From: Asterochloris sp. CNOR1
Lineage: Eukaryota; Chlorophyta; Trebouxiophyceae; Trebouxiales; Trebouxiaceae
NCBI GenBank assembly: GCA_963969365.1
Contig: OZ017747.1
Coordinates: 1,178,001-1,242,000, forward strand
Length of the DNA: 64,000 nt
Direction of reading: 5' to 3'
The position numbers and the translations under genes are program-made. The notes below the pieces were generated by a model. It searched no databases. It was given only the letters and a program-made list of their open reading frames with translations, and was not told the origin of the DNA. Shown here one piece after another: positions 5,308 to 63,600 of this stretch (position 1 is its first letter; each line of letters begins with the position of its first letter).

Positions 5308-8300
5308 ATGGCAGCGATAGCTGAATGCGATCCCATGCAGGGACTCCTGTCAGGTATTGCCATGGCACCTTACACCACCCACTGCACAGCAAGCTTCTTG
5401 GGGCAGCTTCCTTTGCCTGAAGTGCCGTCCCCATGTGCATCATCATGCAGATCTGAAGGCAGAGGCTGTCAAGCTGGAGCAGACCTTTCGCCGGGAGCAG
5501 CAACAGAAGCTTGCAGCATGGCAATCAGACAAGCCCAATCTCAAGCAGCTCATCAGCACGCTGACAGAGACGCGCGCTGTGCTCAGGTCAGCGCTTGAGG
5601 ATGCATTGAGGCTGGCTCAGAGTGACAGGCGGACACCCATCAGCTTGCTCGGCTGCAGCAAGCACCGTACTGCATCTGGCCGCATTTGATGACTGACAAA
5701 CAACAAGCACCATTGAGCTGCCCCCGGTGCCTCCACTTGTGATAAAGAACATTTGTGCTTTTGCATCTGGGACCCCATCCTGCATGGCCAACAGCAGGTT
5801 TCGATGGGCTCTCTCAAGCTCGGTCAGCTGCTATTGCATTGGGCTGCAGGATGGAGGTGACACGCAGACACGCACGCTGGCAGCAAGACCTCAGCTTAGC
5901 CAGACTGCTTTGCATCTGGCGCTGCATCATGCAGGGGATCAATGAGCGCCCCTGGGCTGCCTGGCCCCCGCTGGCAGCCACATTAAGCTGCTGTTGCCCT
6001 GGTTTGCGGAATGAATGTGGAGATATTGGAGGTGCAGCTCGAATTGTCAAGGACAAAGAGCCAGCCTACCACACATAAATCTCGTCTGGATGTATGCCGC
6101 AGGGGGATGCAGCAAGCAAATGTAACCAGCTGCTATAGATTTGACCTGCAGGAAGGAGGTGAAGCAGGCCGAGACACAGCTGACCAGCCTGAAGATGCCC
6201 TCTCCAGCGCCGCCTCAGGCCAGGAGCACAGGGGCACGCCAGTCGCAGGGCCAGCTGCGCTCCCTGCAGCAGCTGCGGGAAGAGAGGGATCGCCTGCAGG
6301 AGGCTCTGACCGCGCTGGACCACAAGATCCTGGCAGCCAAGCTGGACCTGAGCCACATGCACCGGGCAGACGAGAAGGACCTTTGGGAGTCGCAACTCAT
6401 CATTCTGCAGGCAAGCTCTGGTTCATGCTACAGTCTGCTGTGTTCAAGCTGCACGCCATCAATGGTGTGGCACCCTTCCGGGTCCAAGCCGTGTCAGTCT
6501 GATGTCCAAGATGGAAATAAGCACATCCAGAGGCCGGATGAGAAGGACTTGTGGGAGTTGCAGCTCACCTTGCTGAAGGCTGGTGCTGCCTGAGGGCGTC
6601 AGCCTTGTCTGCAAGCTGCATGCTATAAGCATGGGCCATTGCAGACCTAAGCCAAAGGCGTCACCCGTTTGGCCACCTACTATGCAAAGCAGGCCTGGCA
6701 CTGGCCCCACTGATAGTGCTGCCTCAGCCTACAATGCCTGCAAGTGCCGGCCCTGCCGCACTGCACTCCATTGCAGCAGGCGCGGACTGCCAATGCTTCT
6801 GGCAAAAGAGCGGCCCCATCTCCAAGGCTGCTGTTGCACTGATGAGTGGTGTCACCAGGCTGCAGGATGACAGGGCATGCGCCACCTCCTCTTTTTCCAA
6901 AGCGCTGCCACGCCGCAGGACACACCTGGCACATGCTTGAATACAGCGCCGTGTGAAGCAGTGCCGCTTGCTGGTCATACTCGAGTGCCCCTTGCTGCGT
7001 GACAGCCATGGTGTATATGCTGGGGATGTTGGGCACATTGCTTCTCACCTGCTGACACCCTCTGGTTGCCCAAGCACACACAAACGCCATCCTGCAGGTG
7101 TAGCTATTTGCTGCAGGATACTGAGGCATATATGCAGCCTTGCATGAGTAAGAAGCACTGGGTGTCACTGCGAGCCATCAAAATGGATTCGCCCTGCTGC
7201 AGGACACCCGGCGCATGCACGCTGTGGAGATTGAGCACGTGGTGAATGACATCATGACCCAGGAGCGCATGGAGCAGCACGAGAAGCAGCGTGCGCTCGC
7301 CCAGAGCTCTGGCTGGGCCAAGCTGCAGTACCTGCAGGAGCAGCTGCTGCAGTGCGAGACGCGCCTGGCGCAGCTCAAGCACCAGCTGTACTTCCCAGAC
7401 GTCAAGGGCTACAAGTGAGCGAGCCCAGGTGGCTGGTGCATATGCAGTGGCCACTGGTGCGTCCGGGTTCATCATCACCTTCACACCCTTCCCGCATCCG
7501 CCTACCACTTGGGCCTTGGTGATTCGATCTGGGTCTGTCTGGCTATGTGCCTGCCCATTGCAGTCCCTCATACCCAGATCAGGCCTAAGGATTGTGATTC
7601 AGCCCCTGCTGTGTATGCACATATAGCTGCGCAGCTTTGTCTGCCAGGCCTGCTGCTGTGCTGAGAGGCTGATTCCCCTGGTGTGCAGGTTTGCCTTTGG
7701 CGGCTCAGGCGTGTTCTTTGGCGGGAAGGACGTCTTCATCTCAGAGGTCACAGGAGGCTTCAGCGTGACAGCAGATGGGCATGGAACCAACAAGGACGGG
7801 GTGCAGACTGCCCGCCTGATTGTCCAAGTGGGCAACACCAATGTGGTAGACCCTCAGAGGTGAGCACACTGCTGCCTGCTGCAGCATTGCCCCTTATCTC
7901 ACTGACTCGATCCTGCAAGGTGGTCACCTTTGTGGACCCTCAGAGGTGTGCACTTCTGTTGTTTAGAACACTTCTAGGTGCCCACAGCCTATTGTCAGAA
8001 ACAAGCCGCCAGCTGAAGGACCAGCAGCATTCTGGCTGCAGATGCCCTGAATTTGGACGCAACCACTATTGGGCAGTGCTTTCCCCTTCTCTATAATCAG
8101 TCCACCCAAGCCCAGGCTGCTGCAGCCAGCTGAGTCTGTGCATGCGCTGAACATGGTTCAGGTTGACAGCTGCTAGTCTCATTAGCTGTCATAGTCGTTC
8201 CTGCTGCCCTATACTGAGTGCAGCTCTCTCACCAGCTGCTAAATTAACTATGCTGTTTGGGTGTGTAGGTCCCTGGTGAATGCCTCCTCAGCCAGCATGA

Positions 8301-11300
8301 GCAACAAGTCAGCGTTGAACACCTTCAAGCTGCGCCCGTCAGCCTCAGGCAGCAGTCTGAGCCAAGCTGACGGTGCTCAGGGACAGGATGCCGCCACTAA
8401 CAGCAGTGGGAATCCAGCTGCCTTAGGCGAAATGTCTGACACCCCCCGGAGCTCACGTCTATCGAGGCAGTCTGTATCAGGGGACGGGCATGTGCGTCAC
8501 TTGCCTGCTGCTACATGTGTCGGAGCCTGAAGAAACCTGTTTCGGCGCACTGGCGGTCAGCAACTTTGCAAACAGCGGGTTGCAGCTGCCTTATCAGTCT
8601 GCCTGGGGGATGATCACATTGCAGTGGTACAACTGCTGGGCAGTGTGCTGCTCAGGCTGCTTCAAGAACCTGCATGGCGCAGCCTTGGCCCTTCATGCAT
8701 GGTCTCATCCCAGGCCCAACACACTGCCGCAGCCGCCAGGGCTGCAGAGAGTTGCCAAGAGCCCGCGCTGCAGCTGCTCTGCTCATAACTTGCCCCTGCA
8801 GTCACCTGCAGACTGCCTGTGGGCATGTGTGCTCCCAGCAAAAGTCACTGCACTGCTGATGGCATACCCTACACGACCTGCAGGGAGACCTGCAGGGAGA
8901 CGCGACTGACCCCTGGGACATGGCCTCCCAGCAGGCAGCTGCCTCTCCTGCCCGCGCTTCGCAGCCACCACCTTCAGGTGCAATCTGCGGTCAGACATGA
9001 TTGGCCCCATAATGTCAGGCGAGGTCTGGCTGCCTGGCCCAAGCACAATCTGGAGTGTGGGCCAGCAGGCAGAGGGCGCCACCAGCCGGTGCCCATCATT
9101 TCGTCAGGCTGAGTTGACCCGCACAGCCAGTGGCAGAGGGAGCTATGCAGAGGATCTCACTTGAGAGTGTGAAAATGACTAGCGCCCAGCGGCAGGAGCG
9201 GTAGCGTAGCCGCTGCCCTTCTGACAGGTGCCAGGCCTGCCAACTGCGCATGTGACCTGTGCTGGCAGGCTCACCGCAAGGAATCCAAGATGTGATGCAG
9301 GGCAGTCTGGGCAGCAGCTGCCGCCCGCTGGCCGGGACGTCCGAAGCCGGGGCAAGCGCATGGCGGTGAAGTTCCTGAACAAAATGGGGACCAAGGATCG
9401 GTTCAACAACCCTGATGCAGCTGCACAGGCTGGCAGGCAGCAGCAGCGTAAGCCAGCCTACTCGCCTGAGGCATTTGAGAACCTGGGGGCCAAGGGAAAG
9501 AACTTGGCCAACAGGTAGGCGAGCAACACTGCTTGCTCGTCATTCTCTTCTTCTTTGATTTGGTTGGCGCATGGCTGGTGCATTACCACTTGATGCCCGG
9601 GCCTGGGTCTGTCTTCAATGAGTGCTGCTGCCCTGCCCTGCCCAGCCCAGCAGCACCGCTGCATCACCAGGATGAGGTGATGACCATCATGCTTTCCACA
9701 GTGTGCAGAAAGACTCGATCAGCGTGTGTCCAACTCTGAAGCTGCTGCTGCCCTGCAGGCTGCTACACACCCGCAAGCATGATTACGGCAGCAGCAGTAA
9801 GGGCAAGCTGGCGTTTGGCAGCAATGTGATGGGCGGGCGCCAGCACAAGCGGGTGCAGTCCTTCCAGGAGGTCTCAACAGACGCAGCAGATGACGATCTC
9901 AAGCAGGTTAGCCAGCTTGACCCAATCTTAAGTATCTGAGCTGCAGTTGATTGAGGCCTTACGCAGGTATGGGCGCACTGCTAAGGGAGAAGGGGCACTC
10001 AAATAAACTTTAGGGTACATGCGGGTGCAGCCTAGCACAAGACACTTGGGATCTGGGACCTCAATGAGAACTGTCAGCGCATTGAGCACAGAGTGCTGAG
10101 TGTCAGGTCACCTGATGGCTAATCTGTAACATTCTGCGTAGCTTCCTGGGCGCTGCCTTTGCAGGACAGCAGACTGCTGAAGGGTGTAGAGTATCGATGC
10201 CACACATCCACTTGCATGGCCGGCAGGGTCTGTGCACTGCCCTGCTGCAGGAGATGGCCGAAGCCTTCCAGGACGCCCAGCAGGAGGGCATCGCTGGCAG
10301 AACCACAGAGGACTCTGAATTTGAATTGAGTTCGCTGAGAGGCGCCTCACCTGAGCAGCTGCCCAGCCTACAAGGTCTGCACACAGCCTGCCACAGCACA
10401 ACACCCCCCTGCCCATGCATTCTGGCCAGACCATGCCCATGCATTCTGGCCAGACCAGCAGCAGCAGCAGCGATTTGTAAGTGGGATCTGCTCATGCAGC
10501 AACTGGCAACACTCTGTCACTGCACCTGGCAAATTCTGACAGCTTGCAGAGCCCACTCACAGGCCACTCATCGGTGAGACAGCATGCTGTACTGGGCTGC
10601 CTTGGCGCTGATGGTACCCTGCTGTTGCCGTAGACACAGGCAATCTGTGGGAGAGCAGCACCCAGCGCAGCAGTGAGGCCCCGGACAGCGCCTCTGGGAA
10701 CAGCATCACCAGCAGCCGCTCGGGGCTGTATGTGGTGGCTCGGCTGGCAGATGTGGGCCTGGTGGGGGAGCGCGGCACTGGTGTTCCCAATGCCACCATC
10801 AGTGAGGTGTCTGTGGAGCTTGACGTCTCCCTGACTCTGACGCTGGAGTTCAGCAGGTGTGCTCCTGCGAATTCCTCTGACTGTTGGCCCTAGATTGTGT
10901 GCTCCCATGATTTATCAATTTCTGACTCTGAAATGCAGCAGGTGTGCTCCTGGGGCACGGCTTGCCTTGGCAGCAGCTGCTGCAGTACAGAGCGCATGCT
11001 GCTTAGCCTTGAGCACTGCAGAGTGTGTTGGTGTGGCCTCCCAGCTGCCTGTGCACTCCACCTGTCGCCATAGCTGATCATACCTCTGCTGTGGGTCCCT
11101 GCAGTAGCCCAGTGTGGCCGGCCACCTACGCGCCACCAGTGACATTCAGTCCCTTCAGCGTGCTAGGCTGCAAGCCAGCCGTGGGGGCAACAGGCCTCAG
11201 GAAACCCTATATATAAAATGTCTGACTGGTCATGTACTCGCATAAGACTCATCTGCTTTGCTGCAACCTGATGAAGTCTCGAGCTGTGAGCCTCAGGGCA

Positions 11301-14300
11301 TCGCCTGTGTTGACTACTTCACATTCAACTTTGGTCTGATGCCATGTCTGTACCCCTGCAGTGTGCAAGGCTGGCAGGCCACCAGCAAGCCAGCTTTTGA
11401 GATCCACTCCCTCGAGCGCAGCGTGAAGGGCAACTCTGTTCCCATGCCCAAGAGCGTGATACGCCTCATCCTGAACAGCGTCCTGCCCCGCTTGCTGCAG
11501 CGAAGACTGCTCAGGCTGCTCCCCCAAGAGCTGGGCGAGTACCTGCTGCAGGCTGGCAAAGGGTTCGGACTGGGAGGTGAGCTCCACGCCTGGTACGTGC
11601 ATGGCTTGTGCCTGAGCTGGTCGGCTTCCATTCTGTGCCTGTGTACACAGGGAGCAGAAGCAACAAGCCGCTGCGGTCTCAACTGCAGCTGGCCTTTCAG
11701 ACACAAACTGCCAGGCGCAAGCCTCAGCATGTGCGCCAGCCTGGGGCAGTCACCTTCTGCATGTCCACTCAGGGACCTTTGCTTGTCAATAGCACCGTAT
11801 CTCAGAGTAATGGTGCACCCTGCAAGCATACGCTGATTGAGAAGACTAGCTCATGCCTCACACCTGCCCCCTCCAGCATTGCTTCCTGTTCTGGCCTGCA
11901 CGCAAGGATGCATTTGGGGGGCCATACCTGAAGCGGGCTGGATGCCTTCATCGAGGCCCGGTCAGAGAAGTCAACCTTCTCCGTGCAGCGTCTCCTCCAG
12001 GCATGCGTGGAGACGGTGTGCTGTACCCAACATTGCCCAGCCATCCTGTTCACCGCTGTGTGCTGTGCTGGCCTGCAGGCGAGTATGCGCTGGTCGGGCC
12101 TGCCCTGAGTGCGCTGGACGCCGACATTGCCTTCACCCAGGCCCAGCCCACGATGAAGGCCAGAGACCCCCGGGCAGCTGCACAGATGCATGCGGCTGCG
12201 CAGGAGGCGAGGAGCATGCTGGGTGGGCGCCCCTGTTATGGTAGCCTGCTGCCTGGGAGACGGGGTCTCCGCAGGTCATCAGCTTGCAGTCAGACCTGCT
12301 GTTAGGCCTGCAGAGTCGTCGATGCAACTGGGCTCTTCTGACGTGGGCACAGCCTGGCGTTGCTGCCACGTGTGGCCTGTGCTAGCAGGCGGTGCCATGC
12401 ATGCCTGCCAGACATGGCACTTCTCTCAGATGTGATAGCGCACCAGCTTGCCTTGCTGTGATTCGCTGACAGCATGGCCTTTGGCATACAGGCCTGACAG
12501 AGCCTCAAGCCCAGGTCCTGGCCGCCCTCTTCAGTGGGCCTGCCTCCCTTCTGGAGCAGCGGCGCCCATGCACCATCTGCACCCTGGGGGCCTTCTACGC
12601 TGCACACTCCAGCAATGAACGGATCTGGGAGCAGATGTGTGCCGTCTGGGACACAGCGCTGCAGGCAAGCATCTACCTCTCTCCGATGGCTGCCTGCACC
12701 AGCCGCCTCAAAGACCCTGTGCTGTCTGCTTGTCTCCACTTGTTTTGTAAAGCGATCTGCATGTGCTGGAAGCATATGTGCGCTGTCTGGGTCTGGCAGA
12801 GCTGCAGCTTGCAAGCCTTTGCAGGTGCCTTCACCAAAACTCCCGGTGACAAGTGCTTGACTGCTCGTCGGGCTTGAATTGGGTCAATGGCCAGAGAATG
12901 CTATGGGTATGTGCTCATGCTGCTCTGTTTGCACCCCTGCAAATCAGCCTGACTCTGTGCAGGTGCTCGCCAATCACATGGGCATCAGCGACCCGCCAAG
13001 CTTCCAGCAGATGATGTCGCGGGAGGTTGCACTGCTGCTCAGCAAGCCAGTCAGGGCAAGGTGTGCCTCTGGAGCAGCTGCTCCTCAGCAGCGGCACTAT
13101 GCCATGCTGCTGTTGGCTGCTCTTGCTGATATTGAACTCCCTGTTGCTGGGGTGTGATGTCTACATTTGCTGAGCAGGCCCAACCCCAAACGGTGTGCCC
13201 CCAGGCTGCCTCTTCTGGCCTGTCCCAAGAGAGCTGCTGTCTGCTCATGCCAGCCTGCCACCCTCAGCAAGATACATATTGCAGGTTTGCACTCAGCAAA
13301 CTGGACATCGCCATCAATGTTGATGGTCTGCTCACAGCTGCCCGAGACTATGCAGCTCGCAGTGCTCGTGAGCTGCACGCAAAGGAGGGTGCCTCAGACA
13401 GCATGTCTGGTCGGCGAGGGCAGGTCAGCCTGCACTTGCCATGCAGAGGTGTCAGGCCCTTTGAGGCCTTGCCAAACTTTTGCAGTACTGCGTATTAGGG
13501 ACCATGTCGTCCTGACTGACTAATGACCTGCAGCTCCACCTGGTGCCTCCTGATAGCCTGCCAGGGGCTACAGATCTGGCCCCTGGCATGCCTGACCGCG
13601 GCGCTCACTGCAGACAACCCGCCTGCGCAGATAGCTAATCACTGTGCCTGTCTCTGCTGGCTTCTGAGGCAGCCTTCCATGGCCCTGCTGCAGGACCATG
13701 CTGCCAGGACCCAGGCCTTGAGTGACCAGCTGGCGGTGCTGGAGGCTTGGTATGCCTTCTGCGCTGGCAAGCTCAGAGTCTTCAAGGTGCGCTTCGCTGC
13801 TGTGCTGGCTGCTGCAAGGCAGTGAGCGTCAGACGTATGCACTCCCCTGGCCGGCCAGCCAGCATGCACGACTGATTGAGGAGCTTTGTGTTTTGGGATG
13901 AATGATCTGGGCCTCACTGGATCCGACCACCATTGTGGTCAGGCTGACTGCCCGCTGTGTGGGTGCAGAGCAAGTTCAAGCACGCCAACTGCACCGTGGT
14001 TGGCGGCGCAGACTCCAGGAGCTTTGCACTTGGTGAGTTGGGGCAGCTGCGTCTGCATGCAGCTGCTGAACTTGCCCGCTGTCGACAGCCTCAAGGCAGC
14101 GTGGGCCAGATGCTTGTAACAGGCGGGCTGTGTCCGCTGTGGTCCGGCAGCTTGGTCATTCGTGCTGCGCGCTCTGCACGCAAAGGAGGCCTGCACCCTC
14201 CTCACAACCTGCATGCACTGCCTGAGCAGGTCGCAATGTGCTGGGAAAGCGATCCACTACCCGAGCCAGCCACAACACCACAATCTTCGTCTGCAATATG

Positions 14301-16973
14301 CAGGCACTGAAGATGTGCAGTATGAGGGCCCGCTGTGCGTGCGGCTGCCCATCCGGACGAAAACAATTGACCCTGAGGGCACCTTTTCCTTTGAGATCCC
14401 CCTGCCCGACCCCAGCAGCCAGGTCTTCATATTGGCTCTGTTGCTGCCGACACTGCTTTCTGCCTCACACCTGTCGCTGTGCAGTCAACCAGGCTCACAA
14501 AGCTCTGAGCCTGGACTGATTGCTTGACGCTGGGAGGCCTGCATCCAGCCAGCTGCCAGTAGAGTGGTGCGAGCGCAGCGTGTTCTGGATGCTCTGAGCA
14601 CTTCAGCTTGGCTGAGTCTGTGCTTCACTAAGCATATATGCCTGGCAGGCTTACATAGGCCTCAGCATGGCTGACATGCTGACCCTGGGGGGAGCTCTGC
14701 TGCATGTCAAGCAGGCTCTGCAAGCTGTACGCATGACTGCCGGTCACCTGACCGTGTGTCCTGCCCCCAGGTGGTGATGAAGCGCTTTGTTGGCGGCCTG
14801 CGGGAGGCGCTGGAGTCCCCCATGTCTCTGGTGCACAACCCTGCACTGCTGACAGGGCGGCCCAAGGCCGCAGAGGGCACGGAAGGTGCGATTGTGCTGG
14901 CAGGGGAGACTGCATGGCGCTCTGGCACTCTGGCAGGGATGGGCACTCCCAGAGCGGCATGTGCTGCTGCTCCTTATTCGATCCTGGCGCTGCATGGGCT
15001 TGTCACTGAGGCTGCTGATGCCTTGGCCCCTTCTGCATCTCACCTGCTGTTTACCTTCTTCGACTGACCTGTCGCCCTGCACGCATGTGTTCCGGCCTTG
15101 GATACTCTTGAAGTGCAGGCCAATCCCATGCTGCCCATCCATGCACACACAAGCTGCTGCTTCAGCCTGCTCCATACCAGCGCTGTTGTTCATCACCAGG
15201 CAGCACCCTCACAGTGAGTCCCTCCCAACAGGCCTGGTTGCTCTGCCTGCAGAGGGCAAGCACTGGAGCGAGCCCAATGCCCTGGTGGGCCGCCTGACTG
15301 AGGCCGCCGCCAGCGCCCGCCAGGTGTTTGATGCCGCCTCCCAGCACTACGCAGACTCCCTGGAGAGGGTGGGCAGCGGGCGCAGCGCGGGCACCTCTGA
15401 GGAGGCGCTGCCTGACTGGGGGGCCGGCCCACAGCGGGGCCAGGAGCCGCCTCCGCTGAAGCTGGGCAAGGTGGGCTGGCGGCCTACATGTTTGAGCGCT
15501 CTGGGGCTGCGCCAGCGGCCGCTGTGGGGTTGGGCAGGGCAAAAGGATCTGGGGTGTGCAATTGACTGGAGCTTTCCGCTGTCGCTGTTCTGCAAGGTGC
15601 TGCCTGCAGAAGTGATGCCCAACAATTGCCGCCCTGAAGCATCATTAACTCACAGTTGCTGGTACCTGGCTATTCAAGTCTAGTTCTGTCAACAGATGAT
15701 GCATGCTGCGCCTGCCCTGTAGACTCCCTCAGTGCAGCTAGTGCCTGGCAGTGTCCCCTCCCAGCAGCCTGCCTCAGGAGCCCAGCCTTTAGCTACTGCA
15801 GAGAACCTTGTAATATATCATCCAATGCTGCATGTTCTGCCGGTGGCTGCACGTGCTTGAGCTGGGCAAGTCTGGCTGCACAGGCCCTCTGCCCGCTCTG
15901 CCTGCTCTGCATTTCTCATAATGAGCAGGTACGCCCATGCAGGTAACTATGCCTGCCTGCCATACACCAATGTGTGGATGCTACTCAGAAGACTGAGGCT
16001 CACCTCATGCCAGGAGCCCTCTGCAGGTCATTGTCAGCGGCATGCGGGTGCGCATCCGCGTCGACGAGCAGCGGCTGACTGACATGCTCAAGGGGCTGGA
16101 TCCGGGGACGATGGGAGGCAGCTATGCCTCCACCACGGCTGCCCTTCTGGGCATGCTGGGGGACCTGGCAGCCCTCTCCTTTGCGCCCTACTTCCCAGGT
16201 GAGGTGTGCACCTCTGATTTCATGCTGGTGGGTGCCTGCCAGGAGGCTCGCACTGCCAACGGGGACAGCTGGGACATACCAGCAAAGCCGGACATTGATG
16301 CTCAAGAGAGCAGAGAACACGTTTTCTATTGTTGCTCATTGCAACGTCTGAGTCCTGCACAGGCTCTGGCGTGCAACATCTGTCTGCTGATGCCTGAATG
16401 CATTAAGTCTGCCCACCAAGCCACACAAAACCGCCAGCCGGAGCAGCATCTGCTTCATCAAAACACTTTCTGCCTGCCAGTTCAACCTGGATTCAATGCC
16501 CGGATACAACACTGCCTGCCCAGTCTGCTGCCCACCGTGCTTCAGAGAATGGGGAGCCAGGGTACTACCTGCTCAATCTGGAGTCCAGCGACTTGAGCAA
16601 CCTGAGTGCGGACCTGGGATCCCTGGGCTTCCGCAGCGGCGAAGGCATCTCTCCAGGGCGGGCTCTGCGTGTGATTCATGCGATCATCCGAGCCTGCCTG
16701 CTCACATTTGGCATGGCCCCCGCGGCTGTAGCTGAAATAGACAGGAAGATCGACGATGTGCACCGCCACATCGTGCGGGACGCCCTGGATGTCTCCTTCT
16801 GCGCTGTCAGCTCCATGTGTGTGGAGCGGCGAGAGAGTGATGAGCTGGTCATCAGTCTGGCAGGGGTGAATGATGACGCCCCTGAAATGAAGCCCATTCT
16901 GGCCACCAACGACCTCGAGTTGGTGACCTTGGCCCAAAACCTGGGCCTTGGCGAGGCCATTGACGCCTCGTGA
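5308..16973 (+). CDS. Large coiled-coil protein of unknown family, possible TULIP-like lipid-binding region
   Basis: Twenty-three exons chain in consistent phase: 5308-5353, 5451-5586, 6152-6410, 7203-7414, 7689-7859, 8269-8491, 8884-8977, 9301-9514, 9759-9906, 10251-10374, 10634-10856, 11362-11576, 12079-12222, 12492-12664, 12963-13060, 13285-13423, 13694-13786, 13969-14032, 14304-14422, 14771-14885, 15232-15470, 16027-16198, 16546-16973. They give about 1,280 residues. The first ~190 residues form heptad-rich coiled coil (KAEAVKLEQTFRREQQQ, REERDRLQEALTALDHK). A glycine-rich beta segment (FGGSGVFFGGKDVF) and Ser/Gln-rich linker follow. Next comes an alternating beta stretch (ISEVSVELDVSLTLTLEF) and an amphipathic helix pair (VLPRLLQRRLLRLLPQELG). 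The last two elements remind me of TULIP/SMP-type lipid carriers, but that is only a resemblance. The C-terminus is compact and mostly helical. A small extra exon between 13423 and 13694 is possible. Two introns use GC-AG. I do not know the function. Confidence 0.8.
6537..6580 (+). repeat. Intronic copy of the preceding exon end
   Basis: These 44 bases match 6369-6412, the end of the exon at 6152-6410 plus the first two intron bases, with 9 mismatches by eye. The exon reads DEKDLWESQLIILQ and the copy reads DEKDLWELQLTLLK. Both are followed by GC rather than GT. Confidence 0.85.
7935..7948 (+). repeat. Intronic copy of the exon/donor junction
   Basis: The 14 bases gaccctcagaggtg occur at 7849-7862, spanning the exon end (DPQR) and its donor, and again here 86 bp downstream in the intron. 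Flanking bases are also similar (tgtgg before, gcac after). Confidence 0.7.
10400..10462 (+). repeat. Short tandem direct repeat in an intron
   Basis: A unit of about 24 bases beginning cccatgcattctggccagac occurs twice in a row, just downstream of the exon ending at 10374. It has no coding role in the model. Confidence 0.8.
10922..10952 (+). repeat. Intronic copy of the exon/donor junction
   Basis: The copy shares ctgactctga with 10831-10840 and the 16-base agcaggtgtgctcctg with 10852-10867. The latter crosses the AG|GTGTGC donor that ends the exon at 10856. A six-base deletion separates the two identical blocks in the copy. Confidence 0.88.
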
Positions 16974-17208
16974 TGCCCTCGTTGACTGTGCACTGCCTGT
17001 ACAAGTTGTTGCTTGGCTGCGCCAAGCAGCTGCCTCTGGCCCATTGTCCACAGACTTGCCACAGCTGTTTGGTGATGGTGTTCAATATAAATGACCCTTG
17101 AATAAGCCTTCAGCTTTGAGCAAAGAATGACTGTAGCGCAAAGGAAAGCGATAGGACAGCATGCTAGTATACAAGCGAAGCAATGTTGAGTTCAGGGATG
17201 GAAGGTGC

Positions 17209-20325
<3,117 letters not shown>

Positions 20326-20332
<7 letters not shown>

Positions 20333-41593: not shown

Positions 41594-41600
41594 TTGGCTG

Positions 41601-42388: not shown

Positions 42389-42639
42389 GTAGGTTAAAGG
42401 TCTTAAGTAAACAGCTCGTCCCAGCCACAAGGACGTATGATCTCGCTTCAGCAGCACCTCGAAGTGTGGCTCACGCTCTGATCCGGGAGTAACAGGCCAG
42501 TTCTTGTTGTTAAGCTACATTCGACAAACATTGCGGAAGGCCATGCTGTGATCCAGCCCTCAGCCTTGTCCCTGCTGATGCCTGCAGGGCATGTGACACC
42601 AGCACCACTGTCCGGGCTGAGACAGCAACGCCCAGCAGC
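42389..42639. promoter_or_regulatory. Shared upstream region of divergent VMA22 and NOV genes
   Basis: These 251 bases separate the two start codons on opposite strands and should hold both promoters. I see no recognisable motif. If NOV has an upstream exon the region is smaller. Confidence 0.35.
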
Positions 42640-51600: not shown

Positions 51601-54600
51601 GCCTGCACTTCTTCAACAGTCTTGGACAGCTGCAGATCATGGGGAGTGGTCAGTGGAGTTTCTGCATTCCATTTTGAACATGGGCTAAGCTGCTCTGCAC
51701 CAGGCTGTACCTCACCAGAGGGCCGCACCGTGTGTGCGGCTGATGCTGTATGCCATGCGAGTGAAAGGCATGCTTATTGTGGCTGCATGGCATGACAGCA
51801 ACGGCATCACTCAGCGCCTTTCTTGATGACTGTAGGTGCCAAGCTGGGCATGATGGCTATGGCAATGCCAGACGGCAGCCTGCTCAAGCTGCCGCTGCAG
51901 TCCTCCCCTGAGGCGTTCGCAGCTGCCCTCGGCCGCTCAGATGCAGAGGCAGCTGTCGCCTGCGCATTGGCTGTGGTGGCAGATGCCAAGGGCCTGCACC
52001 ATGCTCCTCTCGCACTGCTTGCCCAGCATGCTCAGGTCAGCACCCACAACACCATGCGCCCACCACAAGAGTGCTTTCTCCCTGACAGGTCAGTCCTCCT
52101 ATGTGGTGCCTGCTTGCATGCAGGCTTGTCTGGAGGCAATGGCGCCGGCAGGCCTAGGCCCTGAGGGCACAGCAGCCAGCTCGCTGTGGAGAGCAGCTGA
52201 GCTGGTGGTGCAGGCTGTCTGCAACATCCCTGCCCCCCTGCGACCAGCGCTGGCTGGTGCCGTCCTCCTGCAGCCTTTCAAGCAGGTGAGGGGGGCTGCG
52301 CACCTGCTCGGAGGCAAGAGTCTGCGTCGAGCAGGTGATGGGGCTGCGCATCCGCTCGGAGTCAATAGTCTGCGTCGAGCAGGTTGCAAGACAGGCAGCA
52401 TGTCGCTGCCATTGTGCATGCGGCTTGCTACAGCTTCTTTGAGGAGGAAAAGGTCTTCGCGTGGCAAGAATTGCTGTGTCGGCGTCTTGCTTGGCGCGCT
52501 GCCCTGGCCTCCGTGCTGCACGCAACTCCATCACTCCTGCTGCGTCGTGCCCTGCATGCAGCCTCAGCATCCCTGCTGCTACTGCTGCAGGTGGCAGGGG
52601 GTGCAGCATTTGCTGAGAAGCTGCTGATGGACGTGTGCGGGGACGCGTGCCAACGCAGTGTGCTGCATGGCCTGGGCTTCCAGCTGGGAGTTATGAATTG
52701 GCAGCGCGACTGGGAGCAGCGCTACACATCCCCTGCCACCCCTCCCCGGGAACTAGAGGCTCAGGTGAGCTGTGCTGCACTCATGTCGTGTCATCTACAC
52801 GGCAGCACAGCTCGCCACTCAAGAGCAACCACTGGGTCTTGCCAAATTTCTGTGAGGTGGAGGCTACGTTGAGGTACAAGGGCAGGCGCCGTGCCCTACT
52901 TCATGTCCACAATCCATCCAAGAGCGTGATCCTCTCAGCGCCTGAGGCATGTAAGGTGCTAATGTAACCGCAATGCAATGTAAAAATGCATGCAATGTCG
53001 AATGTAATTGCCGCTGTCTGCTGCACTGCAGGCAGCTGCCAGAGATGCTACTGCAGCTGCAGCCGCCATTGCTGGGCCAACAGACATGGACACAGATGAA
53101 GCTGCAGCGGCGTCCAGAGCCACAGGCACTGTGGAATTCTTGCTGCACCGCCTGCTGGCGCCTGGCGGCCAGCAGCAGCAGCAGCAGCAGCAGGGTCTGC
53201 TGCCCACTGCCAACGCCACTGCCAGGACCAGCAACATCGCATCACCTGAGCGGCATCAGCACCCCCGCAGCAGCACAGCAGCGGGGCCAGGCTTGGCTGT
53301 TGCTGGGCCAGCGCAATTGGCAGACACACGCAGCTGCTACCAGATTGTGGAGGCCATACGCCGCAAGGAGTTCGGCATTGGGCTGGAGCTGGATGAGGAG
53401 AACAGCGACCTGCGGCAACGGCAGAATGACCGTATGGGCCGCGCCCTGCAGCGCCTCTCACAGGTATGACAGTTCCAAGACTGTGGCCGCATCCTGTTCG
53501 CATGCGCGTCCTGCAGCACCTTCCCCTCTGCATGGTCCTCTTGCATCAGGCTGGTGTTCACAAAGCGATGTGCCTTTGGATGTTGCGCCTCTCACTGTTG
53601 CAGTTCAAGCTTGGCAGATGATGTGACCTTGCAAAGAGCCTCCACAGCTCCTGAGGGTCCTCAGGACTGTGCTCCGTCTGCCAGGCCGCAACTTTTGCTG
53701 CCTGCACTCTGTGCGCAGCCTGAGTGCACTTCATGCCAGGCTGCAGCTCAGCGCTTGACCCGGCAATGCCCAAAGTTCAGCTGTCCTGACCTACTCTCAG
53801 GAGCTCATGCGGAAGGTGACACCACAGCTCTGTGGCTGCAGGAGCTGTACAGCAAGGATACGCACTTTGTCCTGGAGCTGGTGCAAAATGCTGACGACAA
53901 TGCCTACGCACCTGGGCAGCTGCCTGCACTGGAGTTTGTCCTGGAGGAGGGGCGCATCACTGTGCTCAACAATGAGGTGTGCCTGCCTGCGCTGCTGGCA
54001 GAGTTCTTGCAAGCACTTGCCAAGCTGTGTGGTTCAGGTGACTGCCAGCTCTGATGGCGCACCTCTGCACGCGCCCAGCCTGATGCAGTGCAAATGCCTT
54101 GCCCCATGTGCTGTCTGCCTGCTGTTGAGGTCATCCATCAAGCAGGAGCCTGCATGCCTGGAAGGATGCCAAGCCGTCTGCAGCTTCCATGCTGCATCCA
54201 AAGTGATGGCAGCAGGGCAGCTGCACTGGGCCCTGCCAGTCTGCATGCACTTGGGGCCAGAGTTTCTGCAAAGGCAAACTCTGGTGCATGAGGCGCAGTG
54301 CCTGTCAGGTTTGCATCTGCATGCTGTCATCTGCACCACTTGTGTGCATACAGGCTGTGCTCTCTCGACAGGCTGCACCTCCCAGCAAGAGTTGCTCTGC
54401 CCTATGGAGGGGGGCACACAGGGGAAGAGCTATGGAGTCCACATCTGCATGCCAGCCCTTGGTTCCTTGACAACCTGGTACTCACAGCAAGAGGCGCTCT
54501 GCCTCATGAGATTAGCTTCAGGTGCCACCCTTGAGAAGACATATTGCACGGAGTCTGCACAAGCTGCCTGTGGCTGCTGTGCCCTTTGGAGGTGGGCATC

Positions 54601-57600
54601 TAAGACAACGACATTCACACCCTGGTGGAGCGGGTCCAGGACCTACCTTTGAAAGGCAACTTCTGCAGTGACAAGCCAAGCAAGGCTGCTCTGCTCTTTG
54701 CAGGTGGGCTTCCAGGAGAAAAACATCCGCGCCCTGTGCGATGTGGGGCGCACTACCAAGGAGCAGGCGCTGGGATACATTGGCCAGAAGGGCATTGGGT
54801 TCAAGTCTGTCTTCAAGATCACAGACGCCCCCCAGATCCACTCGGGCGGCTTCCATGTCGCATTTGACCTGGGCAGCAACAGCTCGCTGGGCTACATCCT
54901 GCCTACCTGGCTAGAGGGGGCGCCTGCGGTGCAGAGCAAGCTGCAGCTGGGGCCAGCCTCCACACAGATCATTCTGCCCTTCAAGCCCGAGGTGAGAGGC
55001 TACAGCTGGGCGACAATCAACCTCAGTTGTGCTGTTCTCCAGGTGTGAGCTACAGTTTCACTTTGTGGCAAAATCTATGATGTGGTCTGAAAGCAGACTC
55101 GGTGCCGCAAGGCACAGCCTGTCAGTCATGCTCATTCTGACAGACGTACAATGTGATAGGACATGCGGTGCTGTGTCTGATACAGGGCAATGCTTGTCAC
55201 AGCTCTTCTACCTGGCTGGGTATCCCGTGTTGTGCCCACCATATCATCCTCTGGCTCTGCAGGCCAGCGGCCAGCGTGCTGCCACGCTGCGGCGGCGCTT
55301 TGACGATGTGCAGCCTACATTGCTCATGTTCCTGCAGAAGCTGCAGTGCATTGTCATCACAGACTCTGTGACTGGCACCTCCTCTGTCATGCTCAGGTGG
55401 GTTGGTGCCCACTGTCCGCCCTGCCAGTGCCCTCGCTTCAGTCTGAGCAGCGCTGCAGCCCGTGACCCTCGCGAAATGCGCCTGCGTTGCTCTTTACATA
55501 CTCAAGTGCATGACGGTGCCGGCACAGGATGCTTTTGCAAGCACCCAAAGCCCACACAGGATAAGCTGCTTGCGATCACTTGACCCCTGAAGGTGCTGGG
55601 TGCCATGCCTGCCTGCCTGCCTGGGTAGCCTCCGTATGAGGGTTGAGAGTATACAGCACACACCCCTTCCCCACACCCCCCACATCCCCTGCAGGCGAGA
55701 TGTGGGCAAGAATTGCATGGAGCTGCGTTCTGGATCCCATGCAGAGCACTGCACCACCTGGCTCAAGGTCAGTGGCAGCTTCCAGCCCACAGTCAAGCGC
55801 CTAGGAGCTGCTCTGGAGCAGACAACCGTGTCCCTGGCTTTCAGTCTGGACGGGCAGGCTCCCACGCAGCAGCAGGTCTTCGCCTTCCTGCCCCTGCGCA
55901 GCTATGGCCTCAAATTCATTGTGCAGGTGAGTGGAGGTACCTGGCCCTGGTGGGCTGCAAAGTACACTGTGCTCTGCAGGTGCATCAAACTTGCACGCCA
56001 TTGTGGCGTGCCGAGCTTTGCCTAATGTTGCCTAATGCAAGCACAAACTTGCCATGTCCAGTCTGGAGCGCGGTATTGACCACATGTCCTTTTGCAGTGC
56101 CCAGCCTTCTCTGAAATGCCCTGGCCTAGTTTGCTTGAGCCAAGAATGGAGCTGGTGTTGTAGGCCGCCACCAAGCTTGCCTGATGCGCTGGACAGAGCC
56201 ACATGGGCAGGCAGCATGGGCAGAATATGTCTGGGCAATTTGTTTGACAACAACTGACAGGCTGCCCCTGGCTGCCCTGCCTCACCTCAGTGAATGCTGG
56301 AATGCAGGCTGACTTTACAGTCCCCTCGTCGCGCGAGTCTCTGGACAATGACAGCGCTTGGAACGAGATGCTGCGGGGGCAGGTCCCCGATCTATTTCTG
56401 CAAGCGCTGCAGAGCTTCAGGCAGCTGCCCCACCAGGAGGCTGACAAACCCATGACCTGGGTCAACAGGTGGCTGGAGTGCATTCCACTGCCGGGCGAGG
56501 TAAGGTCTTTCTTGTCGCATTGCTGGCCAACATCGCCCCAAATCAGTCTCTGCTAACAGCTTTGCTACAACCAGGGAAAGAACTTGCCGGCAAACATGCC
56601 TCAGGCCACAAATGAGTGCTTGCTGGCATGTGCCTGCACCCTGAAATTCTGCTGGTCAGCATCAGCTCTCCACCCCACCCACAACTGCTGCGTGCAGGCC
56701 CAGAGCTTCTTTGCAGCCCTCCCTCAGGCTATCGCGGCGCGCCTGCGAGCTGCCGCCTGCATCCCCACCCAGGATGGGGAGTGGGTGGTGCCTGGGCAGG
56801 CCATGGTGTGCCAGAGCCCGGCAGTGGCCACACTCCTGTCTGACACCCGCCTGGCAGGCATGCTGGATCTGCGCTACGCTCACAGCGGCCTGGCAGCGCT
56901 GCAGGACAGCCGCCCCTTGCGGGCTCTGCTGGGGGTGCCAGAAGTCGCGCATGAGCACCTGCTGGAAGTTGCACAGCGCCTGCAGGCTCAGGTGGGGTCC
57001 TGCTGACTTGTTGCTGAGGGTGTGAGATTGTGCACAACCAACTGCTTAAAAGCCACACAGCGGCTGTAGGCACAGGTGGGCAGTCGGCGCAGATAGTTTG
57101 TGGCCTTTTTTTGCAGTGATGGCCTCAAATGACAGCAGTAATCCTGTTTTCTGCATCTGTATGGGGCAAGCTGACCCAAATGGGATGACGTTTGCACATG
57201 AAGCCCTGAATGCTGCTGTGCAGGGCTGGTCAACCCATCTGGTGGTGCTGTGCAGGGCAAGCTGACCGAGATGGGCAATGTGTGGCTGGCCCAGCTGGTG
57301 CTGTGCGTGCACGAGAGCCTGCATCGCGGCAGTGGCGGCCCAGCAGGAGGCCCCGCCCCCCCCTCCGCAGCCTCAGTCCTCGCAGCCCTGCGGGCCATGC
57401 CCTTGCTGCCGCTGGCCGATGGGGGCTATGCAGCAGTGGAGGACGGCGCTGCCGCGGCCCAGCCTTTAGGGAAGGAGGCAGCCAGCAGCCAGCAGCCCCA
57501 GCGGCAGCTGCCAGTGTACTTCCCATTGGCAGCAGAGGCTGTCCCTGGGACAAGGTTGTGGGAAGCAGAGCGCGCTGTCAGCGAGGTACAGCGGGCCCAG

Positions 57601-60600
57601 CTGCTGAAGTGCCGCTTGCCCCTGCGCTTCCTGGATGATCGCTTCATCAGCGCCGTGGGGAGAGAACGTCGTGTTGAGTTGGTCGCTGCTCTGGAGGTGG
57701 GCATGCTGCTTGCATGCATGACAGCTGCAGTCACAATATGAACCTTCCTGAATGTATCGAACAGTGCTTTGAGGAGGTCAGGCACCTCAAACTGGTCACC
57801 GCTCTGGAGGCGTACGTAGAACAGGATGGCACATCTTGCCACCGGCAAGCACTTCATGGGCATTGGGATGGCATGCATTGCGCCAGAAGAACTCTGCTGT
57901 CTAGGAGTGCTCACACTGAAGGAAGACAGGCTTCTGCCGTAGCCCGCCGTGCTGTGCCGCAGTCTAGATTCGTGCACTAGGTGCCTCCTGGTCCCAACGT
58001 GGCTGGCTGCCTGCGTCAGCTGGCAGGCCGAGGGTCCCGTATGGAGTGCCACTAGTTGGTGCACTGAGCACATGCCAGCACCAGAACAGCCTTGCTGTGC
58101 ATGCATGCATGGCAGCAGCCCGCACTGCACCTCTTGCAACTGTACCCCAGTTGACATCTGCCTGCGTCTTAACACAGCGGCCAAGGTTTGCTCCATATCC
58201 GTGCCCCCTGCAGGCCATCGGCATCCAGCACCTGCAGCTGCTACTCTCTTTATCTCCAAGCGGAAACCACACCTGTGTGCTTTGCAGGCTACATCCATCA
58301 TCTTGTAGCTGACTGCCACTGCTGCGCAGTACCCATTGCTGACCCGAGCGCATTTCCACTCATGCCCATGCAGGCCATCGGTGTCCAGCACCTGTCCCTG
58401 ACAAATGTCATCCTGGATGAGCTGCTCCCTGCCATGGCAGCCCCCAGCACACAGAGCCACCCTGCTGAGACCGCTGTGGCCCATCTGGCGCTCGTTGTGG
58501 GCTCAGGCATGAACCTGGCCAAGGAGGCTGGGCACCCTCAGGTTTTGGAGATTCTGCGCCAGCATGGGCGCATCAAGACACAGCAGAAGGGCACCACCGT
58601 CCGGCTGGCGGCAGGCACCCCTGTGCACCTGCCACCCTCCCTGGGCAGTAAGGTAACAGCTGAGACCTGCAGTGGGTGATGATGTTCTGCATGTGTACGA
58701 GGGTACCTGGTGCACCTGTTGCCCTGCCTGAGCACCAAGGTGGGGGCGTCTGAACACTGCAGCATGGTGCGACTTCCTGTGGGGTGGATGCTGTTGACAG
58801 GAAACACTGTCGAGCAACTGGTGATCCCCCCCCCCCCCCCCCCCCCCCCGGTGCCCATGCTGCTCTTCCTGGGCAGCAGGGTGGGAGCTGGAGACTGCAG
58901 CATGCTGTGATTCCATCTTGCTGACAAAAGTTCATGAACAGGGCTCATCGTCTGTCCACCTCAGATCATTGCACTCTCCCATGTAGGCGGGCCTGAAGGA
59001 CCACATCCCAGACCACAAGTGGCTGTTTGTGGATGGCAGCGCCTACCTGGAAAGCAAGGTGGCTGGTGCAGCGACCTGGCGGGCCTTCTTCCTGCAGCTG
59101 GGCCTGACAGATTTCCTGTACGTCCGTCCTGTGGCCCGTGTGCTGCATAGCGGCGGCCACAGCCAGTCTATCTGGGCCAAGGAGAATCTGGGTCCCTGCA
59201 ATGCGGAGCGCGAGTGGGTTGTGCAGGTGAGGGCAGCACTGCAGCTTGTCCCTTTTCAATCAATCGGGGCTTGAGAATGTGCAGCATGGTCCTACACAAG
59301 CATGGAGTCCACACCTGCTCTGGAGCACACAACACAGCCGCCATTGAAAGCCTCTGCACAATTGACAACAAGACTGCTGCACCCGGTACTGTCCTCCTGA
59401 AGCCAGCCAACTCTCCTGCAGGATTGGTCTGCAGATGAGTTCGTGGCGGTGGTGGGGACCATCAAGGGGCTCAGGGCTGAGGCAGCTGTGTCTGCCTCTG
59501 CCTGGCTGCTGGAGGGACTGGGGACCTACTGGCCGCAGTACCAGGACAAGCTGACAGCCACCGTGGGGGACACCAGGCCCCAGCAAGGTGAGCCTGCCAG
59601 GGAGCAAGACAGCAGGCGTCAGGCACCCACTTGAGCTGCAATTGGCCTGAGGTACCTGTAGATGATGATGCATTGTGGTATGGCAAATCAGTTCCTGAGT
59701 GTGCAGGCCCGTGTGGGATGTGCAGGCAGTTGTGCATCATCCCAGCAACTGGCAGGCTGTGCCAGTCCTCACCTACGCCTCTGCCATCTGTGTCTGCTGC
59801 GGATGCGCGCTCTTGCTGACTGGAAGTGGGCCTGCAGAGCATTCTGAGCTCTGCTGCGTGGCCATGGTCTGCACAGTGCTAATGCAAACTGTATCAGAGA
59901 TGTTCAACAGCTGTGTGCACGTGGCCTGCAGTGTACTCACACTTTCAACCTGTTGCCTTGCTGCACTGACCTGCTCTTTGACCTGCATGCAGAGGAGCCA
60001 GAGGCTGCAGGTGGCCCACAGACCCTGCCCAGCAGCATTCAGTACTCAGACCCTGGTGCCTGGCCTGCAGTGCTTTTGGCCCCTGCTTTTTGCTGCAGGC
60101 GCTGCTGCAGTACACCTGTGCTCAGAGGACTCCCCTGCACTGACTGCCGTGATCCAGCTGCAGGGGCTGACCTAGTCATTGACCTGGAGGCGGAGGAGGC
60201 AGAGGCTGCAGGTGGCCAATTGCGCCTGCCCAGCAGCTTCCAGCATGCCCTGCGCTCTGAGGCCTGGGCCCCCTCCTCAGACAGCAGCCTGCAGCAGCCA
60301 GGCCGGCTCTTCCTGCGCACGGAGGAGCTCAAGGCGCTGCTGGGCGTCTATGTGCCCTATCTGGCCAGCAAGGTGGGTCTTTGCCTGCCCAACAGAGTCA
60401 CTGAGCCCATCGTGAGTTGTGCGCTCTGCCATGCCAGCAGGGTGGATGCCAGCCCTGGGTTGTACTTGCCTCTGTTGATTGCCTGCATAAGCCATGTGTT
60501 GATTGGACAAAGGGCAAGGCCCTTCTGGCCAGCAGGGTGGGTGGCAGCCTTCTCTGCTTGCCCCATCACGCGACTGCGCGGTACCAGAAGAGTGCCTGCA

Positions 60601-63600
60601 TGCTTGGTTGAGCACAGCTCTGGTTACCAGGTCTCGGAGCCCTGCAGTACATTTACGATGGTGGGCCTCCCCACAGCTGCTTCATTCCTCCCTTTGACAG
60701 AAAGCAGCTGGCTGTGTGTGTGTGCCAAGTGCCTGGAAAGGCTACTGCTTCTAGCGGGCAGTCATGCCAAATCTGCCCTCTGGTGGGCTGTCATGCTGAG
60801 CTGTCCTTTTTTTTTTGTGCAGTGGTGCTGAGCGCTGCCTCCTGCTTGCGGCCCTGCTGGGTGCTGCTGCCTACCCCAGCTGACATGTAATGTGTTGTGT
60901 TCCCTGTTTGGTTACGGACCGTGCTTGCAGGTGCAAGCTTCAGCTTCCGGGCTGCTGGACAGCCTGGGGGTGCGCAACAAGTTGACTGTGGACCACGCTC
61001 TGGAGGTGCTGGAGGAGTGGTCAGGGCGGCTGACCTTCCAGGCCAGCGTGGTGCAGGTGACTCTCTCCTCGTGTTGTGTTTGGTCATCATTGTAGTTCTA
61101 CACTTGACATGGACAACATTCGAGAAGGCACAGAGCGCAGCACCTGCAGTACGGTGTGGATTTCCTCTGCGTTAATTTCACTAAGTCTCATGGTTTTCGG
61201 CGTTTGCTTTCCCGGTATAGCATCGCTGAGCCCTTGCACCCCTCCTGCACATCTTGCTTCTTGTGCAGATGAGCTCCGCTGGCTTGGTGCAGCCATTGCA
61301 GCTTGTCATTCTGCCCTGGTGGCCCGGTGCATCATGCATGGGACACTAGTCCTGTACCGTTTGTGCCCGAGCACATGAGCTGTATACCGTTGAGCCTGTG
61401 CAGCAAGTCGCTCTGAACTGGGAGTTTTGCCTCCTCAACCCTGTGTGCCTGTGCAGACAACCAGTCTGTGTGACGGGTCCTGTGCTTCAAGCATGGTGCC
61501 TTTCTTAGTTTATGTGCCACTGCAGATGAGCAGCCTGTATGAGTGGCTGGCAAAAGCCAGCAAGCCAGGGCAACCCTCCCCGGAGGCAGCCCAGCAGGCA
61601 GCAGCCGCACAGCGCCGCGTCTGCGAGGCCTTCTCGCGGAAGCCCCTGCTGTGGCTGCCGCGCAAGCCCTTGCAGCCGGGAGACAGGCTCAAGGACTCCT
61701 GGCGCGCCACCTTGCAGCCAGGCGCCTTCTATGTCTGCCAGCGACAAGTGAGTGGGTTCAGGTGCCACTACAAAGGGGCTTGCTGAAGCAAGCTTCCTTG
61801 ACAAGCACCCATATTGTGCAGATCTGTGCTTGGTTCAATTGGTGAGACAAGGCAGCACCTCTCTGACTAATGGATCTTTCCAGGACTCTTGAGACAAGAC
61901 AAGCATGTCCAAAACACATCTGGTGCATGGCACTGGGGCAGGAGCGCAGCAGAGGCCGGCTGCATGCACCAAGGCCAAAGGCAGACACGCATGCTTGCAG
62001 TGGCCAGGCGCTGATTATGTCATGTGTCTGCATGATGCAGGTCCGCCTGAGGGACCCGGCAGGTTTCATTGAGCAGCTGCCAGAGCGGGACTTCCAGCTG
62101 CGCATCCTGAGCGCCTACTACACCAGCCCGGCCCTGCTGCACTTCTTCAGCGAGCAGCTGGTCTGGCCTCAAGCGCTGCAGGAATCCGCTCTGGTGCCTG
62201 ATCCCTCAGCAGCTGCAGGGGCAGCCTTGGGTGGCCAGCCCGTTGAGAGGCAGCTTGTCATGCCAGAACGCTCCCCTGAGCGGGATGGAGCAGCAGCAGG
62301 GAAGCCTTCCAGTGCGGGCATGGAGGGCAGTCAGCCGCAGCCTGCCTCAGCGCCAGCCAGCCACCAGACGTCTGGTGAATGTGTGCAGTTGATGGGCAAG
62401 GAAGGCAACCCTGAGGTGGTTCAGCAACAGCCGGGGGCTGTGGTAGCTTCTGCCACAGCAGCTGAACTGGGCCACTCTGACATGGAGCTTGACTCCAACG
62501 CTGGGACCCCGCAGCAGGGCCTGTGCTGGGCTCGGGTGTCCCTGGCAGGCCAATCCGACATGGAGCTTGACTCAAACGCTGGGACCCCGCAGCAGGGCCT
62601 GCGCGTCGCTCAGGTGTCCCTCGCGGCTGCCGCCGCCGCAGCACCAGGGGCAGAGGGGCCTGCACCTGCTGCTGCTGGCAGGCCCACCCCCGTGGGCAGC
62701 AGGCCTGGCAGCAACCCCTCCCTGCCAGGCACGGGCGTGCACCTGGTCATGCAAGGCCCCGCAATGGTGGCTTCCACTCCCTCCGATGCGGAGTACTGCC
62801 AGGCGCTGTCCCTGCTGATCTCGGCTGCAGCACGGGGGGACCAAGCCGCGGGGAGGGAGGTCATGCAGAGGGTTCTGGCGGTGTTCAACATGTGGGGGGC
62901 CAGGCTGGCCAGCCACCCCACGACCAGCGCCCCCGACGCTGGGCCCCTGCGCAGTCTCATGAAGATGGTTCAGGTGGGCACCAACACCACACAGACTGCC
63001 CTGTGACTTCTGCATGTGCCAGACCTCCCACCAACAGCGGCCCTGGTGCCAGCCTGCTATCCAGTCTCATGAACTAGCTTCTGTCAAGATTGCCCTGTGC
63101 ATGCCAGCCACCCCACCATCACAACGCTGATGCAGGTGGGCAAAGGCATCAGCATCTGAACTGCATCACTGGACTGGTAAGGAAGCCTGTTTGTTGTGCA
63201 CATGGTGGGTGGACCCAGGCACCTCCTCAGCACAAAGCCTCCTACATAACTTGTGAACGTCTGCGTGAGCGCTGCAGATGCTCATGCACAAACCTCACAT
63301 CACAGCTTTTGCCTGGGTTGGCAAGGACTGCCAGTTGTGCCCAGGGGCTGTCACACACACTGACTGCAAAGCTGCGATAGTAGAACCCTGGTTACTGCCA
63401 GACTTCTCTGCTCAGCACTCCCTGTGACAGACAGAATCCACAGAACAGGCAGGATAGGGCCCAGAAAGACATGCATGGCCTTGCAGTGTGCCCCTGCAAT
63501 GGCGCACAGAAGATGCTGACCATCATTGTGCCTGACCCTGCAGGTGTTCCCGACATCTCAGGGCCAGTGGGTGGCGCTGGCTGACGGGCTCCTGTTGAAC

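Follow-up and report, generated by a model that had tools for sequence, protein, structure and literature searches.

New introns may be gained, according to a published model (Rogers 1989, as cited; the Rogers/Hellsten model), by tandem genomic duplication, which is treated in the available parts of papers on the potato RdRp gene (PMC4974935) and on Drosophila (PMC2891723) and of a review (PMC3443670). Here we describe a 64-kb stretch of the genome of the green alga Asterochloris sp. CNOR1 (positions 1178001-1242000 of contig C2, hereafter the window), whose introns hold decayed extra copies of the neighbouring exon edges, which we call ghosts. Like tandem-duplication intron gain, these copies involve local direct duplication of segments that include an exon edge and AG/GT-type splice sites (the slash marks the junction). 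Unlike it, here existing introns seem to have been lengthened, and the donor-to-acceptor register of a new intron is absent. A closer parallel in the available text of the potato paper is an 83 bp tandem duplication within an existing intron. We consider it likely that introns become longer through duplications, local and often tandem, that run across splice sites already present, and that decoy junctions are what such events leave in the intron.

As far as the available text of a human study (PMC2671141) goes, the copies also resemble the local duplications that it attributes to repair, and the 'doublets' that it cites from Thomas et al., being short, closely linked, inclusive of introns, exons and splice sites, and indicative of continuing activity. 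Table 2 of that study gives partial exon/intron donors as 4 of 824, whereas in our data an exon or junction is paired with an intron in 76 of the 164 close pairs, in a sample of which about one third is predicted exon and with no clear inverted excess. Internal gene duplications (Gao and Lynch 2009, as cited in the available parts of PMC4974935 and PMC3443670) are likewise frequent within genes. Pervasive exon-edge ghosts in algal introns are not described in the titles or abstracts among the literature matches listed. The present case joins the documented local and tandem duplications as a dense example in an alga, and we make no claim of an exceptional rate.

Copies of exon edges in their own introns

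The sequence examined comprised 264 kb, made up of the 64-kb window (W) and of 100-kb stretches of contig C1 (A) and contig C3 (B), in a genome of 56.4 Mb in 21 contigs with a GC content of 56-60%. Genes were predicted with an ab initio exon-intron model, self-trained on the 264 kb without outside annotation, which gave 68 genes, 570 exons (median 134 bp) and 502 introns (median 251 bp). The splice signals of these models are sharp (donor CAG/GTGAGC, acceptor CTGCAG/G). The TGCAG/G acceptor is very strong, with T at 0.91, G at 0.93 and C at 0.96 in positions −5, −4 and −3. Four of the 68 predicted proteins were checked by family and structure searches and all four were supported: DDX23/PRP28, merged in the model with the start of a MutS gene; the MutS III/V part that follows it; an importin-5 on contig B; and a papain-family protease. 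We take the MutS gene next to DDX23 to be MSH3. Gene boundaries in the window are uncertain.

For each intron of at least 110 bp (418 of the 502; 153 in A, 159 in B and 106 in W) both exon edges were compared with the intron itself, giving 836 comparisons. At our main threshold (score of at least 18) 81 of these were positive, where 2.3 are predicted from the introns of other genes. The excess is found on the donor side (40 of 418, 0.9 expected) and on the acceptor side (41 of 418, 1.4 expected), and direct-orientation copies occur on all three contigs sampled (donor and acceptor, 10 and 15 of 153 in A, 21 and 15 of 159 in B, 9 and 11 of 106 in W). In all, 71 of the 418 introns (17%, about one in six) bear a ghost. 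The copy includes at least 10 exon bases in 75 of the 81 alignments, in 67 introns; 66 alignments span the junction, 13 are exon-only and 2 intron-only.

In the inverted orientation only 2 donor and 1 acceptor comparisons of 418 reached 18, against 0.9 and 1.4 expected. At a threshold of 14 this inverted control was somewhat raised (31 and 31, against 17.1 and 23.3 expected), with direct counts (73 and 88) far above it. Introns of the same gene lying two to five ranks away were positive in 16 of 3852 comparisons (6 and 10 of 1926). Since these distant introns are near background, neither gene composition nor the common splice consensus accounts for the excess. With the splice signals trimmed from the intron body, 26 and 17 of 470 comparisons still reached 18, against 1.5 and 0.6. 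At a rank distance of one, the donor query matched the preceding intron in 7 of 357 cases and the acceptor query the following intron in 13 of 357, with 1 and 3 of 357 in the opposite directions; an excess restricted in this way to the exon's other intron is expected if some duplicated units take in a whole exon. The exon-intron similarity first noticed in the initial annotation of the window is therefore real, standing above the other-gene, same-gene-distant and inverted controls alike.

Local direct duplication as the probable source of the copies

We also scanned the 264 kb without regard to genes for all close direct pairs (offset 25-499, score of at least 18) and found 164, where 2.5 are predicted from far offsets. 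Short-range direct repeats are thus in excess over both far and inverted repeats. By class, observed pairs (with area expectation in brackets) were intron-intron 51 (48.8), exon or junction with intron 76 (61.6), exon-exon 9 (15.7) and intergenic, a small count, 8 (8.7). Since the classes roughly track area, introns exert no special draw over intergenic DNA, and the duplication looks like a property of the DNA rather than of introns, with exons shielded by selection. The description of the copies as tandem holds in part. It fits 22 of the 164 close pairs, whose copies follow each other head to tail almost completely (copy length no less than 0.8 of the offset), and 41 of the 114 pairs that have a spacer of 25 bp or more and an offset up to 300, namely those whose spacer shares homology with the outer flanks (5.7 expected).

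In the explanation we favour, short-range direct duplication would recur, with an offset of roughly 30-400 bp and in at least some cases head to tail. Where a unit lay over an existing exon-intron junction and the outer junction was still spliced, the protein would stay the same and the intron become longer, now enclosing a duplicate of the exon edge with its splice site. Duplicates confined to exons would mostly be purged by selection. The intronic copy would then decay through substitutions and small indels, its exon-side part staying visible longest, as only one of the two copies of that part would be free to change. The molecular step may be slippage, template switching or unequal exchange, and we infer neutrality, the order of events and which copy is spliced.

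Alternatively, repair-mediated copying (synthesis-dependent strand annealing or template switching), which places spaced copies, could be the main source, and this we regard as possible, if rather unlikely. Among 17 spaced pairs with an identity of at least 0.85, 11 show no spacer homology at p<=0.05 (one is a three-copy array, where the test is invalid), and the available text of PMC2671141 documents local duplications in human that include exons and splice sites. However, inverted copies are not in excess at 18 or more and only slightly so at 14-16, the head-to-tail pairs and homologous spacers tell against it, and deletion following tandem duplication likewise produces unmatched spacers.

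Decay of the copies and probable growth of introns

Identity between ghost and source ranges from 0.63 to 1.0 (median 0.78, 81 alignments), a spread that suggests an old and continuing process. In the pooled ghosts the mismatch rates of the exon part are 0.224, 0.202 and 0.270 at the three codon positions and 12 of 76 indels are divisible by 3; the third-position bias and in-frame indels that would mark coding maintenance are thus not seen in them. With mismatches so even and indels mostly out of frame, the ghosts are not maintained as coding sequence and decay as non-coding DNA; that third positions differ slightly more often is consistent with synonymous changes having occurred in the real exon. 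The DDX23 gene offers an example. The exon predicted to carry Walker A begins at 30952, and it is this copy, the one called as exon, that DDX23 sequences of known structure match. The copy 69 bp upstream translates K-S in place of K-T, with other changes besides.

Many ghosts retain splice-site dinucleotides. At junctions aligned without gaps, GT is intact in 20 of 27 ghost donors and AG in 23 of 34 ghost acceptors, and the intact sites score close to the real ones (medians 3.05 against 3.18 for donors, 4.48 against 4.83 for acceptors). Many introns would therefore hold plausible competing predicted splice sites. The copies might on these grounds be functional, either as alternative or mutually exclusive exons or as decoy sites retained for regulation, and the segment at 18862-18911 in the protease gene is still highly similar to 19154-19203. 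This is nevertheless improbable, given the even codon-position mismatches and the mostly out-of-frame indels; moreover, the proportions of intact dinucleotides (0.74 and 0.68) barely exceed the 0.61 given by a per-base identity of 0.78. Real sites in ghost introns are stronger than real sites overall (medians 4.64 and 5.57, against 3.18 and 4.83); we rejected this as a sign of selection, since the gene finder prefers the stronger copy.

In the importin-5 gene (L025 ~925-1202; contig B 60925-61202, C3) an intronic exon copy was apparently called an exon, a probable case of a ghost misread by our gene finder. The structure matches omit query residues 111-143 of DDX23 and at least the first 53 residues of the queried importin-5 piece, and these stretches seem to owe at least some of their sequence to ghosts or introns.

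If introns had been born by duplication of an AGGT-containing exon segment, the two AGGT copies serving as donor and acceptor, both intron ends and their exons would be copies in register. We therefore compared the donor and acceptor flanks of each intron in register, outside the consensus, with permuted introns. For the 458 introns of at least 80 bp the registered identity was 0.2523, against 0.2567 after permutation (z −1.9), so the flanks are not copies; nor was there a register signal in all 502 introns (z −0.61) or in the 84 introns below 110 bp (z 0.27). A registered segment scoring at least 10 occurs in one of the 458 introns, against 0.6 expected, and the same intron reaches at least 14, against 0.0 expected. 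Planted copies of ghost-like age attained a registered segment of at least 10 in 2 of 2, 12 of 12, 26 of 28 and 76 of 76 cases. The pooled z was 7.6 with 28 planted copies and only 1.3 with 12; given this insensitivity, counting introns one by one discriminates better. Among copies of the ages at which growth is seen in 71 of 418 introns, birth is thus seen in about one intron at most.

The one registered case is a predicted intron of 89 bp (L027 ~8634; contig B 88634, C3 ~888634). We take its gene to resemble one for a PPR protein. We did not accept it as a birth, as it is one case of 458 and protein repeats could mimic it.

Birth thus appears very improbable, less likely even than a function for the copies. 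Junction-spanning copies are common, the model is documented in other eukaryotes (available parts of PMC3443670, PMC4974935 and PMC2891723) and the 89-bp intron shows registered similarity, but flank register lies at the permuted level, the number of segments of at least 10 is close to expectation at a score that planted copies nearly always attain, and the ghosts sit within introns. The suggestion that this lineage records how its introns arose or grew is accordingly upheld for growth, through local duplications that carry an exon edge and junction and are seen at many stages of decay, and finds no register signal for origin. In the explanation we favour introns would grow by such duplication, and births would not occur at a detectable rate. 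Detectable ungapped copies cover about 5.4% of the bases in introns, 4.5% of those in exons and 3.2% of those in intergenic DNA, and they touch 96 of the 502 introns, so that the greater part of intron length is not explained by them.

Chance, a common splice consensus or biased composition can be set aside with near certainty, as the initial annotation had held: the splice signals are strong and alike, so short junction-centred matches do occur, but adjacent pairs are far more similar than randomly paired ones, and swapped introns, same-gene introns at least two ranks off and the inverted orientation (at 18 or more) are all near background. Introners or other intron-borne mobile elements, which are reported chiefly from fast-evolving groups, green algae among them (PMC9860276, available part), seem scarcely credible here, with 0.0 expected matches of at least 25 between exon edges and other-gene introns, in a comparison that included no all-against-all alignment of introns, and with 16-mers repeated in the window at distances above 10 kb numbering 3 in direct and 7 in inverted orientation.

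Several observations weigh against growth by local duplication or limit how far it can be pressed. In four of the 71 ghost introns the copy takes in fewer than 10 bases of exon. Ghost frequency rises with intron-length quartile (5/104, 6/105, 19/104 and 41/105, shortest to longest), which is consistent with growth by duplication but also reflects the greater room for detection in long introns. In the gene-blind scan intron-intergenic pairs are scarce (1, against 5.8 expected) and junction-junction pairs exceed their area expectation (6, against 1.4, at 18 or more). The seven such pairs at 15 or more involve neighbouring exons that are both apparently used, ghosts called as exons, or tandem repeats over one junction, and none of the seven has the donor and acceptor of one intron in register. 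Junction-spanning pairs number 56 against 16.7 by area (over three-fold), and pairs of exon-only sequence with intron 20 against 44.9. We attribute both departures to the conserved exon edge and splice site being fixed while only the ghost drifts, both copies drifting in the intron part; a true preference of duplication for junctions would also fit. Homology between spacer and flanks extends to no more than 41 of the 114 spaced pairs and is undetectable in several young ones (for example 10836-10867/10921-10952), so that either later deletions reshaped the pairs or some copies were made at a distance. Finally, errors are present in the ab initio models, among them merged genes and, probably, ghosts called as exons.

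Copies in the window and what they mean

The window has 125 introns. At a score of at least 17 it holds 22 copies, which lie on both strands and fall in 19 introns belonging to 7 predicted gene models; at 18 or more, 18 of its 106 introns of at least 110 bp are involved. Requiring at least 10 exon bases leaves 18 introns at 17 and 17 at 18. The splice junction is spanned by 20 of the 22 copies, and one of the other two (source 31318-31340) is intron-only. Offsets from copy to source are about 49-302 bp, with one of about 418 bp. These figures bear out the earlier count of at least fifteen introns in five genes, as well as the identical runs of 14-18 bases reported there; the longest exact runs in our alignments are 17, 17 and 18 bases. 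The copies and related segments are collected below.

Table 1. Ghosts and other local copies in the window (identities as matching/aligned bases).
Feature	Position	Strand	Context and match
Ghost of acceptor and exon 6127-6182	5825-5879	+	Intron 5587-6151, gene model 4947-16973; 44/54, score 27.3
Ghost of exon end and donor 6337-6412	6506-6580	+	Intron 6411-7202; 57/75, score 36
Ghost of exon end and donor 7818-7867	7909-7953	+	Intron 7860-8268; 36/45, 14-base exact run
Ghost of exon end and donor 10836-10867	10921-10952	+	Intron 10857-11361; 28/32, 17-base exact run over AG/GT
Ghost of acceptor and exon 11354-11418	11097-11160	+	Intron 10857-11361; 45/64, score 23
Ghost of acceptor and exon 12063-12144	11886-11959	+	Intron 11577-12078; 57/73, score 29.4
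Ghost of exon end and donor 12625-12670	12766-12816	+	Intron 12665-12962; 39/46, score 23.9
Ghost of acceptor and exon 18164-18238	18289-18363	-	Intron 18205-18448, papain-family cysteine protease gene (Pfam Peptidase_C1); 47/75, score 19
Copy of 19154-19203, 292 bp away	18862-18911	-	Cysteine protease region; 43/50; in predicted exon (exon/junction class), exon or ghost
Ghost of exon end and donor 25091-25126	24803-24837	-	Intron 24587-25091; 30/34, 17-base exact run
Ghost of acceptor and exon 30048-30093	29759-29804	+	DDX23/PRP28 gene, intron 29374-30053; 35/46
Ghost of acceptor and exon 30921-30980	30851-30911	+	DDX23; 44/58; predicted exon holds Walker A motif GSGKT
Further copy segment by the Walker A exon	30885-30923	+	DDX23; 30/35 at offset 69
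Ghost of intron tail, acceptor and exon 31583-31660	31403-31478	+	DDX23, intron 31311-31613; 60/76, score 38
Copy of intron segment 31318-31340 near donor	31499-31521	+	Intron 31311-31613; 20/23, score 17; no exon bases, junction not spanned
Ghost of acceptor and exon 37630-37699	37541-37604	+	Intron 37312-37646, MutS-family gene (Pfam MutS III/V); 54/64, 18-base exact run
Weak ghost of exon end and donor 45587-45623	46005-46042	+	Intron 45607-46288; 31/36, gapped score 17
Copy of exon end and donor 52278-52313	52327-52361	+	Intron 52286-52590; 31/35; only 8 exon bases; 48-bp tandem repeat, array 52281-52384
Ghost of acceptor and exon 54684-54736	54572-54624	+	Intron 53977-54703; 41/53, score 29; related segments 54391-54426, 54351-54406/54453-54508
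Ghost of exon end and donor 56949-56996	57032-57080	+	Intron 56992-57255; 36/48
Ghost of acceptor and exon 57248-57275	57157-57184	+	Intron 56992-57255; 23/28
Ghost of acceptor and exon 58365-58394	58205-58234	+	Intron 57697-58373; 27/30
Candidate retained exon duplication of 59966-60042, 201 bp on	60167-60243	+	Score 49; exon/junction class; both copies at least partly predicted coding
Ghost of exon end and donor 60354-60378	60519-60542	+	Intron 60373-60930; 23/24 aligned with gap
Exon-derived copy of 62908-62963	63018-63073	+	Intron 62974-63543; 39/56; junction not spanned

The candidate exon duplication yields a repeated peptide in gene model 58788-63675. In the protease gene, donor-like sequence follows both members of the pair 18862-18911/19154-19203, which could be a source and its ghost or a mutually exclusive exon pair. 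A search for paralogues by which ghosts might be dated, covering region 17200-20400, returned the region itself and two short matches. At 62470-62624 lies a 78-bp coding tandem repeat, its copies 88% alike and in frame, with a peptide unit that includes SDMELDSNAGTPQQGL. At 40126-40151 there are 26 G in one unbroken run.

In this sample two easily merged ideas come apart, since duplication across splice sites lengthens introns often and, at the same age, creates them rarely or never. Although the introns of this genome are short, the 264 kb contain roughly sixty aligned junction ghosts (27 donor, 34 acceptor), which form a natural test set for how the spliceosome ignores decoys. They also counsel caution in gene prediction and annotation, where ghosts may be called exons, as apparently in importin-5. 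More speculatively, and with considerable doubt on our part, the lineage might have an unusually high rate of short-range duplication, its long introns consisting largely of one decayed copy after another of their own exon edges, and the standing load of near-authentic decoy sites having shaped the strong TGCAG/G acceptor. If that were true, these introns would be a readable and dateable record of intron growth.

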